Below, one piece after another: positions 10,589-17,318 of a stretch of 64,000 nucleotides of DNA (position 1 is its first letter; each line of letters begins with the position of its first letter). Below the pieces are notes generated by a model that saw nothing but the letters and a program-made list of their open reading frames with translations, did no database searches and was not told the DNA's origin. Origin of the DNA: Anaerolineae bacterium. Lineage in GTDB: Bacteria; Pseudomonadota; Alphaproteobacteria; DSM-16000; Inquilinaceae. The stretch is taken from the NCBI GenBank assembly GCA_028285185.1, contig JANQQD010000320.1, positions 1 to 64,000 of the forward strand, in the 5' to 3' direction. The translations under genes were made by a program, and so were the position numbers.

Positions 10589-10805
10589 GGGAGGTTTCGC
10601 AATCTTCCAAGATTGGCCGCTAGGTATTTGTTTTGTTGCGATAATCCGGGATCTACGAAAGCCAATTCCCACCGCCCTCGGCTATCATTTCATTCTGCGC
10701 AACCGTTCGATCGTGGATTTTGAGATCGACGGCTTGGGGCCATTTGGCCGCCGCCTGGCCACCACCCCGCCGCGCCCAACGATAAGGATTCACCGAGGAG
10801 ACACC

Positions 10806-11867
10806 ATGTGCGCCTTCGACCATCGCAGCTTCGCCGGCCACGAGGCCGTCACCTTTGCGCATGACCCGGCGACCGGCCTGCACGCGATCATCGCCATCCA
10901 TTCAACGGCACTGGGCCCGGCTGCCGGGGGCTGCCGGATGTCGAGCTATCCTTCGGCGGATGCCGCGATCGATGACGTGCTGCGTCTGTCCCGCGGCATG
11001 ACCTACAAGAATGCCATCGCCGACCTGCCGTTGGGCGGGGGCAAGTCCGTGATCATCGGCGATCCGGCGTCGGACAAGAAGCCCGCGCTGCTGGAAGCCT
11101 TTGCGCGCGCCGTCGACGGGCTGGGCGGCTGTTACTATGCCGCCGAAGACATGGGGATCGGTCTGGCCGACGTGCAGGCCATGGCCCGCGTCACCCGCTA
11201 TGTGGCCGGCCGCCACACCGGGTCGGCTGCCAGCGGCGATCCCTCGCCGGTAACGGCGCGCGGCGTCTTTCTGGGCCTCAGGCTGGCGGTTCTGAGAAAG
11301 CTGGGGCGTGACAGCCTTGACGGTGTCCGTGTCGCCGTCCAGGGGCTGGGCAATGTCGGCCTGAACCTGTGCCGCAAGCTTCGCGCCGCCGGGGCGACCT
11401 TGGCGGTCACGGATGTCCGCGCCAGCGCGATCAACTTCGCCGTCACGGAGCTGGGGGCGGAACCGGTTGCGCCGGACGCCATTATCGACAGCGATGTCGA
11501 CGTTTTCGCGCCGTGCGCCGGCGGTGCGGTGCTGACCCCGGAGACGATCGCGCGGCTGAAGGCGCCCATCGTAGCCGGTGCCGCCAACAACCAGTTGCTG
11601 GACGATGACTGCGGCGAGCAGCTGCGGCAGCGCGACATCCTCTACATGCCCGACTATGTCATCAACGGCGGCGGCATCATCAACGTCGCCGCGGAGATCG
11701 CGGGTCGCTATGACCCGTCCTGGGTGGAGCACAAGCTGCAGCGCCTGATGGCGACGCTGAACGCCATCGTGACGGATGCCGACAGGACCGGCCTGCCCAC
11801 CAATATCTTGGCCGACCGCATGGCCGAACGCCGCATCGCCAGCGCGGAACAGTGCCGGGCTGCATGA
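10806..11867 (+). CDS. Leucine dehydrogenase (Glu/Leu/Phe/Val dehydrogenase family)
   Basis: Reversible NAD-dependent oxidative deamination of leucine and other branched-chain amino acids to 2-oxo acids. The 353-residue protein has the N-terminal substrate domain with HSTALGPAAGGCRM (about residues 34-47) and the catalytic-lysine segment GMTYKNAIADLPLGGGK near 63-79, then a Rossmann domain with VQGLGNVG near 180. The C-terminal segment DYVINGGGIINVAAE is typical of leucine rather than glutamate dehydrogenases. Start at 10806 follows GAGGAG; an earlier in-frame ATG at 10713 would add residues unlike the family. No other catabolic gene for branched-chain amino acids is nearby. Confidence 0.9.
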   Translation: MCAFDHRSFAGHEAVTFAHDPATGLHAIIAIHSTALGPAAGGCRMSSYPSADAAIDDVLRLSRGMTYKNAIADLPLGGGKSVIIGDPASDKKPALLEAFARAVDGLGGCYYAAEDMGIGLADVQAMARVTRYVAGRHTGSAASGDPSPVTARGVFLGLRLAVLRKLGRDSLDGVRVAVQGLGNVGLNLCRKLRAAGATLAVTDVRASAINFAVTELGAEPVAPDAIIDSDVDVFAPCAGGAVLTPETIARLKAPIVAGAANNQLLDDDCGEQLRQRDILYMPDYVINGGGIINVAAEIAGRYDPSWVEHKLQRLMATLNAIVTDADRTGLPTNILADRMAERRIASAEQCRAA

Positions 11868-11992
11868 CGGAAAGGCCAGGCGCTGAGCGGGAAGTGGGGC
11901 GCCCCGACGCCGCCCGGCGACGATGCATATTGTCGCCCGTGAACTGACGGCGGATTGCACCGATCGGCGGATGCTGGTCTAAGGGTCGGTGA

Positions 11993-14710
11993 ATGCGTTC
12001 GGGCAGATGGCCTGGCGCAACCCGGACGAGCGCCGACAGCATGCCCAGCACGACGGCTGCCCGCATCGACACCGCCGAAGACACTGCCGCGCCGACGCTG
12101 ACGGCGCTGTTCGACGATTTCGCCGCGCGTGGCGCGCGCCCCGCGTTGATCACAGTCGGCCTCGGCCAGGCCTGGTCTTATGCCGAACTGCGCGACCAGT
12201 GCGACCGCCTGGCTGCGGGCCTACTGGCGGACGGACTGGCTCAGGGGGAGCCGGTGGCGCTGCTCGGCCCCAGCCGGGCGGAATGGGTGGCGCTGGCGCT
12301 GGCGGTGATCCTGGCGGGCGGAACCGTGGTGCCGCTCGATACCGTCATGGCGCCCGACGATCTCGCCTATGCCTTGCAGGATTGCGGCTGCCGGCGTGTC
12401 TTCGCCTCGACAGACAGGCTAGAGCAACTGGCGCCGATCATCGCGGCCGAGGGGCTGGCGCTCGGCCTGCTTGACGCAGACAGCGACGGCGATGCGGGGC
12501 GAAGCTGGCGCGCCTGGCTTGCCGACCGGCCGGCTATCCTGCCCACGCCGGCCGCGTCCGACCGCGCCGTGCTGTTCTACACATCCGGCACCACGGGCCG
12601 CCCGAAGGGCGTGCCGCTGACGCATGCCAACATCGCGTTCTGCGTCCACGCCCTGCTGGAACGCGATCTGGTGACGGCGGATGACCGGGTGCTGGTGCCG
12701 CTGCCGCTCTACCACGTCTATCCCTTTGTCGTCGGAATGCTGACGCCGCTAGCGCTCGGCATCACCATCGTCTTTCCCGAAGGCCTGACGGGGCCCCAGA
12801 TCGTGGCCGCGCTCAAAGAGGGCGAAACCACGGTGATGGTCGGCGTGCCCCGGCTCTACGAGGCGCTGATGGACGCCGTGCGGGGCCGGCTGAAGGCGCT
12901 TGGCCGCGTGCCGGCCGCCCTGTTCGGCGGCGCGCTCGCCCTCTCCTCATGGCTGCGGCGCCGGATGGGATGGCATGCGGGCCGGGTGCTGTTCGGCTCA
13001 TTCCGCCGCCGTATCGCGCCGCGGCTCAGGCTGATGGTGTCTGGCGGGGCGAAGCTGGACCCGGCACTGGCCTGGGGGCTGGAGGGGTTGGGCTGGGAGT
13101 TGCTCTCGGGCTACGGGTTGACCGAGACCAGCCCCATCGTCGCCTTCAATGTGCCCGGTCGGGTCGACATCGCCACCGTCGGCGTCCCACTCAATGGCGT
13201 GGACCTGCGCATCGAAGGCCCGGACAGCGACGGCAATGGCGAGATCCTGGTGAAGGGGCCGAACGTCTTCGCCGGCTATCACCAGGCGCCCGACGCGACC
13301 GCCGCTGCCTTTACCGAAGACGGCTGGTTCCGTACCGCCGATCTCGGGCGGGTGGACGATCGCGGCTTTCTGCAGATCGCCGGCCGGCGGGCGGAGCGCA
13401 TCGTGCTGGCCGGCGGCAAGAACGTCTATCCCGAAGCCGTGGAAGCCGCCTTCGATGACGAGCCCGTGATCCGCGAGATCGCAGTGCTGGAACTGGACGG
13501 CCGACTTGCCGCACTGGCGATGCCCGATGCGCAAGCGGCACGCCGGGCCGGCGCGCTGGACGTGGCGGAGGCGGCGCAAGCTGTGGTCCGCACGGTTGCG
13601 GAGCGCCTGCCCGCCCATATGCGCCCCCACGCCGTGGCCCTGACCCGCCAGCCGCTGCCGCGCACGCCATTGGGCAAGCTGCGCCGCCATCAGCTGCCAG
13701 ATCTCTACCGCCAGGGCATGGAGGGCCGACAGGCCCCCGCCAAGGCGGAGTTGTCCGAAGCCGACCTGGCCCTGCTGCGGGCGCCGGCCGTGGCTCCGGT
13801 ATGGAACTATCTCAGCCGCCGCTATGCCGACAAGCCCGTCGCCCCCGCAGCCGACCTTGAGGGCGATCTTGGCATCGACTCGCTGGAATGGGTGAACCTG
13901 TCGCTGGAGCTTGAAGAGCGCGCCGGCGTGGTGCTGCAGCAGGAGGATCTCGGCCGCATCCAGACCGTGCGCGACCTGCTGGAACACGTGCTGACGTCCC
14001 AGGGCCAAGACCGCCCCCCGGCGGCGGCGACCAAATGGGAGGCCTGGGCCGAACCGCGCGGCCCCGTCTGGCGCATGGGCGGTCGGTTCATCTACCTGCT
14101 CAACCGCCTGATCCTGGCGCTGCTGGTGCGTCATCGCAGTACCGGGGCGGACCAGGTGCCGGTTGCCGGCCCGGCGGTGCTGACACCCAACCACATCAGC
14201 TTCCTCGACGCGTTCTCGGTGGGTGCCGGGCTGCCGTTCCGCCAGGCCCGGCGCGTCTACTGGGCCGGCACCACCACCTACCTCTTCCCCAATACGGTCA
14301 TGCGGCTGTTCAGCCGGGCGGCCAACATCTTCCCCGTGGAGCCGGGGCAGACAGCCGGCTTCAGCCTGAAACTGGCCCGCCGCGTGCTCGACCGGGGCGA
14401 GGCGGTCGTCTGGTTCCCCGAAGGCGCGCTGTCGCGCGATGGCGAGCTTGGGCGGTTCATGCCCGGCCTTGCCCGGCTGGTTGCGGGAACCGATGCGACG
14501 TTCGTTCCCATCCATATCAAGGGCACGCGCGAGGCCTGGCCGCGCAGCCGGCGGCTGCCTCGCCCTGGGCGGGTCAGCGTCGTCTTCGGTGCCCCGCTGA
14601 CGCAACAGGCGCTGATCGCCCGGGGGGAAGGCGAGACGGAGGCGGAGCGCATGGTCGACGGCCTGCGCCAAGAGGTGGCAGCGCTCGCCGCGAGGCACGG
14701 CGCAGGGTGA
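11993..14710 (+). CDS. Acyl-adenylating synthetase - ACP - PlsC acyltransferase fusion (Aas-like)
   Basis: A 905-residue three-part protein. Residues 35-575 are an ANL adenylation domain: FYTSGTTGRPKG near 195-206, GYGLTETSP near 373-381, TADLGRVDDRGFLQIAGR near 448-465 and the terminal catalytic lysine in PLGKLRR (Lys562). Residues 600-668 form a carrier domain with GDLGIDSLEWV, Ser630 being the phosphopantetheine site. Residues 690-895 are a PlsC-type acyltransferase with NHISFLD (His734, Asp739) and FPEGALSRDGELG. It likely activates a fatty acid, loads its own carrier, and passes the acyl group to a lysophospholipid or glycerol phosphate at the inner membrane. E. coli Aas has the two enzymatic domains in the opposite order and no carrier. 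Its stop overlaps the transporter GTG start. Start could also be ATG at 12041. Confidence 0.88.
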   Translation: MRSGRWPGATRTSADSMPSTTAARIDTAEDTAAPTLTALFDDFAARGARPALITVGLGQAWSYAELRDQCDRLAAGLLADGLAQGEPVALLGPSRAEWVALALAVILAGGTVVPLDTVMAPDDLAYALQDCGCRRVFASTDRLEQLAPIIAAEGLALGLLDADSDGDAGRSWRAWLADRPAILPTPAASDRAVLFYTSGTTGRPKGVPLTHANIAFCVHALLERDLVTADDRVLVPLPLYHVYPFVVGMLTPLALGITIVFPEGLTGPQIVAALKEGETTVMVGVPRLYEALMDAVRGRLKALGRVPAALFGGALALSSWLRRRMGWHAGRVLFGSFRRRIAPRLRLMVSGGAKLDPALAWGLEGLGWELLSGYGLTETSPIVAFNVPGRVDIATVGVPLNGVDLRIEGPDSDGNGEILVKGPNVFAGYHQAPDATAAAFTEDGWFRTADLGRVDDRGFLQIAGRRAERIVLAGGKNVYPEAVEAAFDDEPVIREIAVLELDGRLAALAMPDAQAARRAGALDVAEAAQAVVRTVAERLPAHMRPHAVALTRQPLPRTPLGKLRRHQLPDLYRQGMEGRQAPAKAELSEADLALLRAPAVAPVWNYLSRRYADKPVAPAADLEGDLGIDSLEWVNLSLELEERAGVVLQQEDLGRIQTVRDLLEHVLTSQGQDRPPAAATKWEAWAEPRGPVWRMGGRFIYLLNRLILALLVRHRSTGADQVPVAGPAVLTPNHISFLDAFSVGAGLPFRQARRVYWAGTTTYLFPNTVMRLFSRAANIFPVEPGQTAGFSLKLARRVLDRGEAVVWFPEGALSRDGELGRFMPGLARLVAGTDATFVPIHIKGTREAWPRSRRLPRPGRVSVVFGAPLTQQALIARGEGETEAERMVDGLRQEVAALAARHGAG

Positions 14711-16014
14711 CCGCGACTCCACAGGATCCTGCAGGATCCGCCCCTCGCGCCGGGCCCCGCGCGCTCTGGTCCTGGGCCACCTTCGACTGGGCCAATAACG
14801 GCTTCTCCACCGTCATCCTGACCTTCGTCTTCAGCGCTTACTTCGCCCGCGGCGTCGCGGAGTCCCCGACCGAAGGCACCACGCTATGGGGATATGCGCT
14901 GTCGATATCCGGATTAACCATTGCGCTGGCGAGCCCGGTCGCCGGCGCCGTCGCCGACCGGCGCGGGCGGTTGAAGCCGTGGCTCGGCACGGCCACCGCC
15001 GTCTGCGTTGCGGCTACGGCCCTGCTTTGGTTCGTCCGGCCAGATCCCGCCGACGCGATCATGGCATTGGCGCTGATCGTCATCGGCAATGTCGCGTTCC
15101 ATCTGGCGCTGGTCTTCTACGACAGCCAGCTTGCCCATCTGGTACCGCGAGAGCGCGTCGGCCGCTGGTCAGGCTGGGCCTGGGGTCTGGGCTATGCTGG
15201 CGGCCTGTCCTGTCTCGGTGCATCGCTGCTTCTGTTCGTTCAGGCAGAAACCCCCATCCTACCGCTGGATCCGGAGACGCAGGAACATATCCGCATCGTG
15301 GGGCCGTTCGTCGCCCTGTGGTTTGCCGTCTTCGCCCTGCCCCTGTTCCTGTTCGTGCCGGACCGCGCCGATACCGGCACCCCGATCGTCCGTGCGGCGC
15401 GCGAGGGCCTCAGGCAGCTCTCCGACACCTTCAGGGAGGTACGCCGCAGGCATGCCAACATCCTGCGCTTCCTGATCGCGCGCATCCTCTATAACGACGG
15501 CCTCAACACCCTGTTCGCCTTCGGCGGCATCTACATGGCCGGCACCTTCAGCATGTCGGTGGCCGAAGTGCTGATCTTCGGCATCGCCATCAACCTGACG
15601 GCCGGCCTCGGTGCCGCGATCTTCGGCTGGGTCGACGACCGCATCGGCCCATGGCGGACGATCATGATCGGGCTTGCGGGGCTGCTCGGTTTCGGCATCC
15701 CGCTGTTGCTGGTCGAAAGCCGCGACTGGCTCTGGGTTTTCGCGTTGCCGCTGGGCCTGTTCGTCGGGCCCGTGCAGTCGGGAAGCCGCTCGCTGATGGT
15801 TCGCCTGGCGCCCGAAGGCATGGTCAGCGAGACCTTCGGCTTCTACCAGGCCTCGGGCAAGATCACCGCGTTCATGGGACCAGCCATCGTCGGCACGGTG
15901 ACCGCCTGGACCGGCAGCCAGCGCATCGGCCTCGCCCCGATCCTGATCTTCGTCATCGCCGGCGCCCTGATCCTGCTGACGGTGCGCGAGCCGGGGCGAC
16001 GAGCCGGGGTCTAG
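14707..16014 (+). CDS. MFS transporter, UMF1/Atg22-like
   Basis: A 435-residue inner-membrane protein with about 12 hydrophobic spans. The opening span FDWANNGFSTVILTFVFSAYF is close to the signature of UMF1/Atg22-type permeases. MFS loop motif ADRRGRLKPWLG lies near residue 82. A cytosolic loop holds the middle (VPDRADTGTP to RRHANILRF). UMF1 proteins are poorly characterised. The start is GTG at 14707, overlapping the TGA of the acyltransferase fusion (GTGA), so translation is coupled. By analogy with LplT-Aas, where an MFS flippase feeds lysolipids to the acyltransferase, a lipid substrate is a reasonable inference, not something the sequence proves. Confidence 0.82.
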   Translation: MTATPQDPAGSAPRAGPRALWSWATFDWANNGFSTVILTFVFSAYFARGVAESPTEGTTLWGYALSISGLTIALASPVAGAVADRRGRLKPWLGTATAVCVAATALLWFVRPDPADAIMALALIVIGNVAFHLALVFYDSQLAHLVPRERVGRWSGWAWGLGYAGGLSCLGASLLLFVQAETPILPLDPETQEHIRIVGPFVALWFAVFALPLFLFVPDRADTGTPIVRAAREGLRQLSDTFREVRRRHANILRFLIARILYNDGLNTLFAFGGIYMAGTFSMSVAEVLIFGIAINLTAGLGAAIFGWVDDRIGPWRTIMIGLAGLLGFGIPLLLVESRDWLWVFALPLGLFVGPVQSGSRSLMVRLAPEGMVSETFGFYQASGKITAFMGPAIVGTVTAWTGSQRIGLAPILIFVIAGALILLTVREPGRRAGV

Positions 16015-16016
16015 CC

Positions 16017-17318
16017 TTGCAAACCGAACACCGCCCGCCATCGGATCTGGCATTGAGCCCGCGCGAACGCTTCAATCGCATCCCCGAATCCGGCCTCTGC
16101 ATCGGCTGCGGCCTGTGCCAGAGCCTGGCGGGGCCCGAATGTATCAGCATGGCCATGACGACGGAGGGCAACCAGCGGCCCGTGGTCCGCGGCCGGCTTG
16201 ACGATCGAATGGTCGACCGCATCTACGCGGTCTGCCCCGGCACCCGCGTCGACGGCCTGGCGGAACGGCTGCTCACAGAGGACACCAGTGTTGATGCGGT
16301 CTGGGGGCCCTTCCAGCGCATCGTCTACGCCTATGCGGCCGATCCGGAGGTGCGTTTCCAGGGTTCCACCGGCGGTGTCCTGAGCGCGCTAGCCCTCTAC
16401 CTCCTGGAAAGCCGTAGGGTCGACTTCATCCTGCACGCCAAGGCGTCGGCGGCACACCCCACCTGGGGCGAGCGCCATGTGAGCTTCGATGCCGCCGCCG
16501 TCATGGCCGGTGCGCAGTCGCGGTATGGGCCGACGGCACCGCTGGTCGACTTTCGCGAGATCCTGGACCGGGGTCGGCCCTTCGCCTTCATCGGCAAGCC
16601 GTGCGACGTGGCCGCATTGCGGAACTATGCCCGGCTCGACGACCGGGTCGATCGCCTATGCCAGTTTCATCTCGCGCCTGTCTGCGGCGGCTTCATGGAA
16701 CCGGCTGCCATGCGCCGGTTCCTCGCCTCACTGGGCCTGGCGGAGGCGGACGTGACCCGCTTTTCCTATCGCGGCCGCGGCTGCCCCGGCCCGACCCGCA
16801 TCGAGACCGCCGACGGACGGGTGATCGAGAAGACCTATCTAGACATGTGGGGAAAGGACGAGAGCGCCTGGGGCCTGCCGTTCCGGTGCAAGATCTGCCC
16901 TGACGGCATCGGCGAGGCCGCCGATATCGCCGCTGCCGACACCTGGCCCGGCGGAGCACCGACCCCGGAAAGCCAAGCCACGGACAAGGGAACCAATGCG
17001 GTGCTCGCCCGCACGGCCAACGGGCGGGACCTGCTGGACGCCGCGGCCCGCGACGGCGCGATCGTCATCGACGGCGAAGCCGGCCCGCGCGAAATGGATG
17101 TCTATCAACCCCATCAGGTCAGCAAGAAGCTGGCCGTCTGGGCCCGCCACGCAGGGTTGCGAGCCGCCGGCCGCTTGGCCCCAGAGACGGCACGCCTGCG
17201 GATCGAAGAGTTGGCCCGCACCGCCGGAGTGTCATCCAACCTGGCGCAGGCACGCGGGACGAGGCGGCGAGCCCGAGAGGGACGGACGGATGAGCCGACC
17301 CCACGGCCGGCTGACTGA
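16017..17318 (+). CDS. FrhB-family Fe-S flavoprotein (F420 hydrogenase beta-subunit-like)
   Basis: A 433-residue protein of the coenzyme F420 hydrogenase/dehydrogenase beta family. A ferredoxin-like cysteine set lies at the N-terminus (Cys28, Cys31, Cys34, Cys42: CIGCGLCQ then GPEC). The FrhB core follows, with FQGSTGGVLSALALYLL near 117-133, IGKPCDVAALRNYA near 192-205, YRGRGCPGP near 252 and FRCKICPDG then ADIAAADTW near 286-310. Relatives transfer electrons between ferredoxin, flavin and an organic acceptor, for example reducing vinyl or prenyl groups (BciB, geranylgeranyl-type reductases). Start is a TTG two bases after the transporter stop; no ATG fits. The cluster context suggests a membrane-lipid-related redox step. 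Substrate unknown. Confidence 0.78.
   Translation: MQTEHRPPSDLALSPRERFNRIPESGLCIGCGLCQSLAGPECISMAMTTEGNQRPVVRGRLDDRMVDRIYAVCPGTRVDGLAERLLTEDTSVDAVWGPFQRIVYAYAADPEVRFQGSTGGVLSALALYLLESRRVDFILHAKASAAHPTWGERHVSFDAAAVMAGAQSRYGPTAPLVDFREILDRGRPFAFIGKPCDVAALRNYARLDDRVDRLCQFHLAPVCGGFMEPAAMRRFLASLGLAEADVTRFSYRGRGCPGPTRIETADGRVIEKTYLDMWGKDESAWGLPFRCKICPDGIGEAADIAAADTWPGGAPTPESQATDKGTNAVLARTANGRDLLDAAARDGAIVIDGEAGPREMDVYQPHQVSKKLAVWARHAGLRAAGRLAPETARLRIEELARTAGVSSNLAQARGTRRRAREGRTDEPTPRPAD

Follow-up and report, generated by a model that had tools for sequence, protein, structure and literature searches.

The 64,000-nucleotide window analyzed here (contig JANQQD010000320.1, forward strand, to which all coordinates refer) contains a group of three closely spaced genes on the same strand. 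The first encodes an enzyme in which an adenylation domain, an acyl carrier protein (ACP) domain, and a PlsC acyltransferase domain are contained within a single polypeptide chain. It is followed by a gene for a UMF1/ATG22-like transporter of the major facilitator superfamily (MFS), a type of gene that also lies beside the enzyme in other lineages, and by a gene for a protein of the FrhB/FdhB family. The features are as follows.

11993-14710, plus strand: gene for the AMP-ACP-PlsC enzyme, 905 residues, with full-length homologues
12122-13282, plus strand: AMP-binding domain, PF00501, 269 bits, residues 44-430, with the conserved motif YTSGTTGRPK
13676-13678, plus strand: codon for Lys 562 (K562, 905-residue numbering), the catalytic-type lysine of the adenylation C-terminal subdomain, in an LGK motif and invariant in 24 aligned proteins
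13829-13990, plus strand: phosphopantetheine carrier domain, PF00550 (PP-binding), 28.9 bits, residues 613-666
14135-14521, plus strand: PlsC acyltransferase domain, PF01553, 66.6 bits, residues 715-843, with the motifs NHISFLD and FPEG
14707-16014, plus strand: gene for the UMF1/ATG22-like MFS transporter, 435 residues, GTG start
16017-17318, plus strand: gene for the FrhB/FdhB-family flavo-iron-sulfur protein, 433 residues, TTG start

The coordinates of the genes and the joints between them are those described in the original prediction, which had been made from the DNA letters and a list of open reading frames. The GTG start of the UMF1 gene at 14707 sits inside a GTGA that spans the stop codon of the enzyme gene, and the UMF1 stop codon is separated from the FrhB start by a gap of two bases. 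An alternative ATG start for the enzyme gene at position 12041 would yield a protein of 889 residues. A second genome of the same genus (G001) retains the enzyme, UMF1, and FrhB at 96, 93, and 89% identity, respectively, and thus the three genes are not annotation artifacts. A scan for promoters and terminators gave no signal above chance, and PADLOC returned no match to a defense-related protein.

All three domains of the enzyme, each of them named in the original prediction, score above the Pfam cut-offs, and PF23562 (AMP-binding_C_3) does so as well with 22 bits. The carrier serine, Ser 630, is encoded by nucleotides 13880-13882 and lies within the motif LGIDSLEW. Across the 24 aligned proteins the adenylation lysine, the carrier serine, and the histidine and aspartate of the PlsC domain are invariant. 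An AlphaFold model calculated with the 24-row alignment has a mean predicted local distance difference test score of 84 and a predicted template modeling score of 0.58. In this model the carrier serine, which is Ser 614 in the 889-residue numbering, begins a helix. The best matches of the model in the PDB are adenylating enzymes, one of them the EntE-EntB adenylation-carrier fusion (3rg2), and the PlsC portion resembles the 1-acyl-glycerol-3-phosphate acyltransferase 5kym. No named family was found for the three-domain architecture, and a search of the open-access literature, which does not extend to subscription papers or preprints, found no paper on it.

Of the 385 alphaproteobacterial genomes sampled, 20 encode homologues that are full-length or nearly so. 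A 21st match (G384) is without the carrier and PlsC parts, and the homologues in G139 and G320 are cut at contig ends. When a phylum-wide sample (n = 299) was searched with a strict threshold, the window genome alone matched; more distant homologues, among the matches listed, come from the Nitrospirota, Lentisphaerota, Actinomycetota, and Saccharibacteria, and those from the Nitrospirota and other phyla show the same motifs. The window genome itself carries a paralogue with 42% identity on another contig. Two copies of the three-domain enzyme lie close together on one strand in G198 (L162:6364-9039 and 10771-13425), and in G219 a protein with VTT (DedA-type) and DUF1232 domains is encoded directly 3' of the enzyme homologue (L160:10305-11270).

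The product of the second gene matches PF11700 (ATG22) with 144.7 bits against a cut-off of 24.1, in keeping with its earlier assignment as an MFS transporter, and a simple hydropathy scan reveals 17 overlapping hydrophobic segments, where the original prediction had given 12 spans. Three gene orders place a UMF1 gene together with the enzyme. In the window and in G001 the enzyme gene precedes that of UMF1, in two Kiloniellaceae UMF1 is located upstream of the enzyme, and in a paralogous cassette of G000, G001, and G004 the order is UMF1, hydrolase, and enzyme. In the enzyme tree the UMF1-paired loci form three separate groups, and well-supported branches force three changes; in the UMF1 tree the pairing needs four changes, two of which are forced. 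The simplest reading of these trees is that the adjacency arose by repeated assembly in about three lineages, and repeated assembly would argue for a functional coupling of the enzyme and UMF1. An ancestral linkage followed by many losses is an admissible alternative history. By a rough estimate, the probability that two pairings besides that of the window arose by chance is 0.0003-0.005. A UMF1 match is present in 19 of the 20 enzyme-bearing genomes as against 162 of the 365 others; among families, none of the 13 that have the enzyme is without UMF1 (13/13), the family-level test of co-occurrence assuming about 171 families. The search for the architecture and the tally of its neighbors, both proposed with the original prediction, reveal a UMF1 pairing that recurs in separate lineages and catalytic residues that are invariant, together with a majority of homologues that are without these neighbors. 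Genome G000, the assembly of which is listed with 8.5% contamination, possesses four UMF1 genes (contigs C199, C2, C311, and C215).

The hydrolase of the paralogous cassette, which was observed at L050:9757-14790 (G000, contig C215), L052, and L057, is an amidase of the acid-ceramidase/NAAA-like type. Its relationship to acid ceramidase has an E value of about 1e-5, that to N-acylethanolamine acid amidase (NAAA) is weak, and the protein falls below the cut-off of the C45 model; a cysteine occupies the same place in both lineages. The amidase could plausibly supply free fatty acid, and its presence in the cassette favors a role in fatty-acid recycling. Next to the cassette, all three loci have homologues of genes that by eye look TenA- and ThiD-like.

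The third protein is, as predicted, an iron-sulfur protein of the FrhB type. Both PF04422 (52 bits) and PF04432 (90 bits) are matched above their cut-offs, and an alignment of 19 sequences shows eight invariant cysteines (Cys 28, 31, 34, and 73, and Cys 196, 223, 291, and 294), a number that would be enough for two [4Fe-4S] clusters. FrhB adjoins the enzyme and UMF1 in the window genus only, and a conserved three-gene operon was therefore rejected. Relatives of FrhB were found in 23 of the 385 genomes with varied neighbors; at L246 and L247, in two genomes, they are positioned between the same two genes, which by eye resemble those for an acyl-CoA (coenzyme A) dehydrogenase and an acyl-CoA synthetase. 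The redox step that had been proposed as an attached part of the system is thus not conserved in it, given this genus-limited adjacency and the inconsistent neighbors of the relatives. There is no match to CofD (TIGR01819) in the window genome (99% complete but in 402 contigs); the control scored above the cut-off in three genomes. F420 is thus an unlikely cofactor for FrhB, and an F420-linked redox function is unsupported. Among the flanking genes scanned there is no hydrogenase or formate dehydrogenase partner for FrhB. FrhB and the enzyme do co-occur above expectation (8/20 genomes, P = 4e-6; 5/13 families, P = 0.001), and hence some role for FrhB is possible.

One further gene is located upstream of the enzyme on the same strand.

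10713-11867, plus strand: gene for an amino-acid dehydrogenase of the ELFV family

The nearest NCBIfam model for this protein is that of the Trp dehydrogenase ScyB, with a score of 342.6 bits that is below the cut-off of 600. The gene is also kept in G001, and it is possibly a member of the transcription unit of the enzyme.

We put at about one half the probability that the three-domain protein is a fatty-acid recycling acyltransferase with its carrier in cis, repeatedly paired with a UMF1 transporter, and that FrhB is a local addition. Together, the enzyme and UMF1 would form a lipid-recycling system that is as yet uncharacterized and is plausible rather than proven. In such a system, the adenylation domain would activate a free fatty acid with ATP. 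The acid is probably long-chain, since the nearest NCBIfam matches of the enzyme include long-chain-fatty-acid ligases. The activated acyl group would then be loaded onto the phosphopantetheine at Ser 630 within the chain itself. From there PlsC, the C-terminal domain, would transfer it at the inner membrane to a lyso- or amino-lipid, onto a hydroxyl group. What UMF1 may carry through the membrane is the acceptor lipid or else a precursor resembling an amino acid. FrhB would be a lineage-specific flavo-iron-sulfur partner, probably not linked to F420, with no confident tie to the acyl product.

Several observations weigh against this reading. UMF1 is not adjacent in most of the homologous enzyme loci, although the pairing may be undercounted since some loci without it are situated at the ends of contigs (L054, L166, L175). 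The amidase is not part of the window cassette, and the co-occurrence statistics given above are corrected for phylogeny only coarsely. Malonyl-CoA synthetase, too, is among the near matches of the adenylation domain, and thus the acid substrate is not fixed. The remaining points concern what UMF1 carries. At 17 of the 28 UMF1 genes that are not beside the enzyme, a gene for NAD-glutamate dehydrogenase precedes UMF1 in the same orientation, in most cases by no more than about 100 bases. Additionally, yeast Atg22, a relative of UMF1, has been described as an amino-acid effluxer (PMC6933646). Because UMF1 usually follows NAD-glutamate dehydrogenase, it may carry an amino-acid-like compound and not a lysolipid; a lysolipid cargo, argued by analogy, is uncertain. 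The amidase of the paralogous cassette and the VTT/DedA-domain protein next to one enzyme homologue weigh in the opposite direction. The LplT-like lipid transport suggested for UMF1 in the original prediction did not find support. A search of the open-access literature for bacterial UMF1/ATG22-like transporters under the family name yielded a single paper, on a fungus, and four papers mention both Atg22 and lysophospholipid, each once or twice. UMF1 genes lie directly 3' of an NAD-glutamate dehydrogenase of ~1600 residues, with which they sometimes overlap, in many alphaproteobacterial families (L178-L205, L252, L254, L257, L259, L261, and L263).

In the chief rival account, the enzyme would be a fatty-acid scavenging acyltransferase that functions by itself, uncoupled from UMF1 and FrhB, whose adjacency in this genus would be a by-product of gene order. 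Such an account is in line with the majority of homologous loci, which have neither UMF1 nor FrhB next to the enzyme, and with the inconsistent neighbors of the FrhB relatives; indeed, the lineages rich in the enzyme and those rich in UMF1 may simply overlap. It does not readily explain, however, why UMF1 adjacency is encountered in about three lineages and in different orders, given the low chance estimate for two further pairings, or why the genes in the window are joined by an overlap and a two-base gap and are retained by a second species. We regard the lone enzyme as possible, if on balance unlikely.

More doubtful is the fuller proposal of a second lipid-remodeling system that parallels LplT-Aas, in which a self-loading acyltransferase, repeatedly assembled with UMF1, would be served by a transporter with a lipid or acyl-conjugate cargo, and the FrhB of the genus would modify the product. 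The analogy with LplT-Aas drawn in the original prediction holds for the three-domain enzyme, its conserved residues, and the recurrent UMF1 pairing, but fails with respect to membership in the Aas family, as judged by domain order, the built-in carrier, and the family cut-offs.

It is improbable, in our estimation, that UMF1 carries an amino acid or a conjugate thereof and that the enzyme acylates an amino-acid-derived acceptor to give an aminolipid or an acyl amino acid, with the upstream dehydrogenase belonging to the same unit. The frequent position of UMF1 directly 3' of NAD-glutamate dehydrogenase, the ELFV dehydrogenase encoded shortly before the enzyme in the window, the amino-acid efflux ascribed to Atg22, and the N-acyl-amide hydrolase relative in the paralogous cassette are all consistent with it. 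Yet the upstream dehydrogenase is separated from the enzyme by 126-174 bases, and near the Kiloniellaceae pairs only one locus has a relative of it, a distant one (31% identity). The enzyme is also without an amino-acid-specific acyltransferase domain, and PlsC-family enzymes normally form esters, which likewise argues against such an acceptor.

That the locus is the true equivalent of LplT-Aas, rearranged and with ACP fused, is highly improbable: the set of functions is the same (MFS, acyl-activating enzyme, and PlsC), but this already weakened proposal was rejected on the basis of domain order, the family cut-offs, and a genuine LplT-Aas fusion elsewhere in the window genome, a 1162-residue MFS-PlsC-AMP protein on contig C281 that with 1473 bits exceeds the LplT-Aas equivalog cut-off of 1349. 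Moreover, enzyme-bearing genomes neither avoid nor prefer canonical Aas (3/20 versus 74/365, P = 0.78, 385 genomes of the class), and mutual exclusion of the two, also considered, thus gave no signal.

If the carrier-in-cis recycling acyltransferase is the correct reading, fatty-acid recycling would have been built more than once in bacteria. Fusion of the carrier into the enzyme would commit a fatty acid to one lipid, bypassing the CoA and ACP pools, and bacterial UMF1/ATG22-like transporters would gain a concrete partner.

With respect to known systems, Escherichia coli Aas/LplT and the fused LplT-Aas proteins (NF005291, NF006386, and NF005959) likewise combine activation and a PlsC domain in one chain and have an adjacent MFS partner. 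In Aas, however, PlsC precedes the adenylation domain, whereas in the window enzyme the order is adenylation, carrier, and PlsC. The NCBIfam Aas models yield 231.7 bits of 1221 and 156.5 of 1349 with the window enzyme, both below cut-off, and the canonical LplT-Aas transporter matches MFS_1/MFS_3, in contrast to the ATG22-type partner in the window. The transferase of E. coli Aas is N-terminal and a separate holo-ACP is used, and LplT and Aas work as a complex (PMC11416262). The window enzyme, unlike Aas, has its own ACP, which may make a soluble ACP unnecessary.

Caulobacter AasR loads a dedicated ACP and has been proposed to steer free fatty acids into sphingolipid (PMC9386255). Among functional precedents for a carrier set aside for one pathway, AasR/AcpR comes closest, in that an adenylating enzyme loads a carrier of its own and commits a free fatty acid to one lipid. 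AasR and AcpR differ in being separate proteins that deliver the acyl group to serine palmitoyltransferase and in having no PlsC domain. No serine palmitoyltransferase is encoded among the neighboring genes scanned; the genome itself was not searched for this enzyme. EntE-EntB (3rg2), to which the model is structurally matched, also joins adenylation and carrier domains in one chain but is without PlsC, and it takes an aryl acid substrate in a siderophore pathway. With FrhB/FdhB subunits the window protein shares both domains and the eight conserved cysteines. Finally, the window transporter is a member of the UMF1/ATG22 family (PF11700), but one that is positioned beside an acyltransferase rather than the NAD-glutamate dehydrogenase usual among the Alphaproteobacteria.

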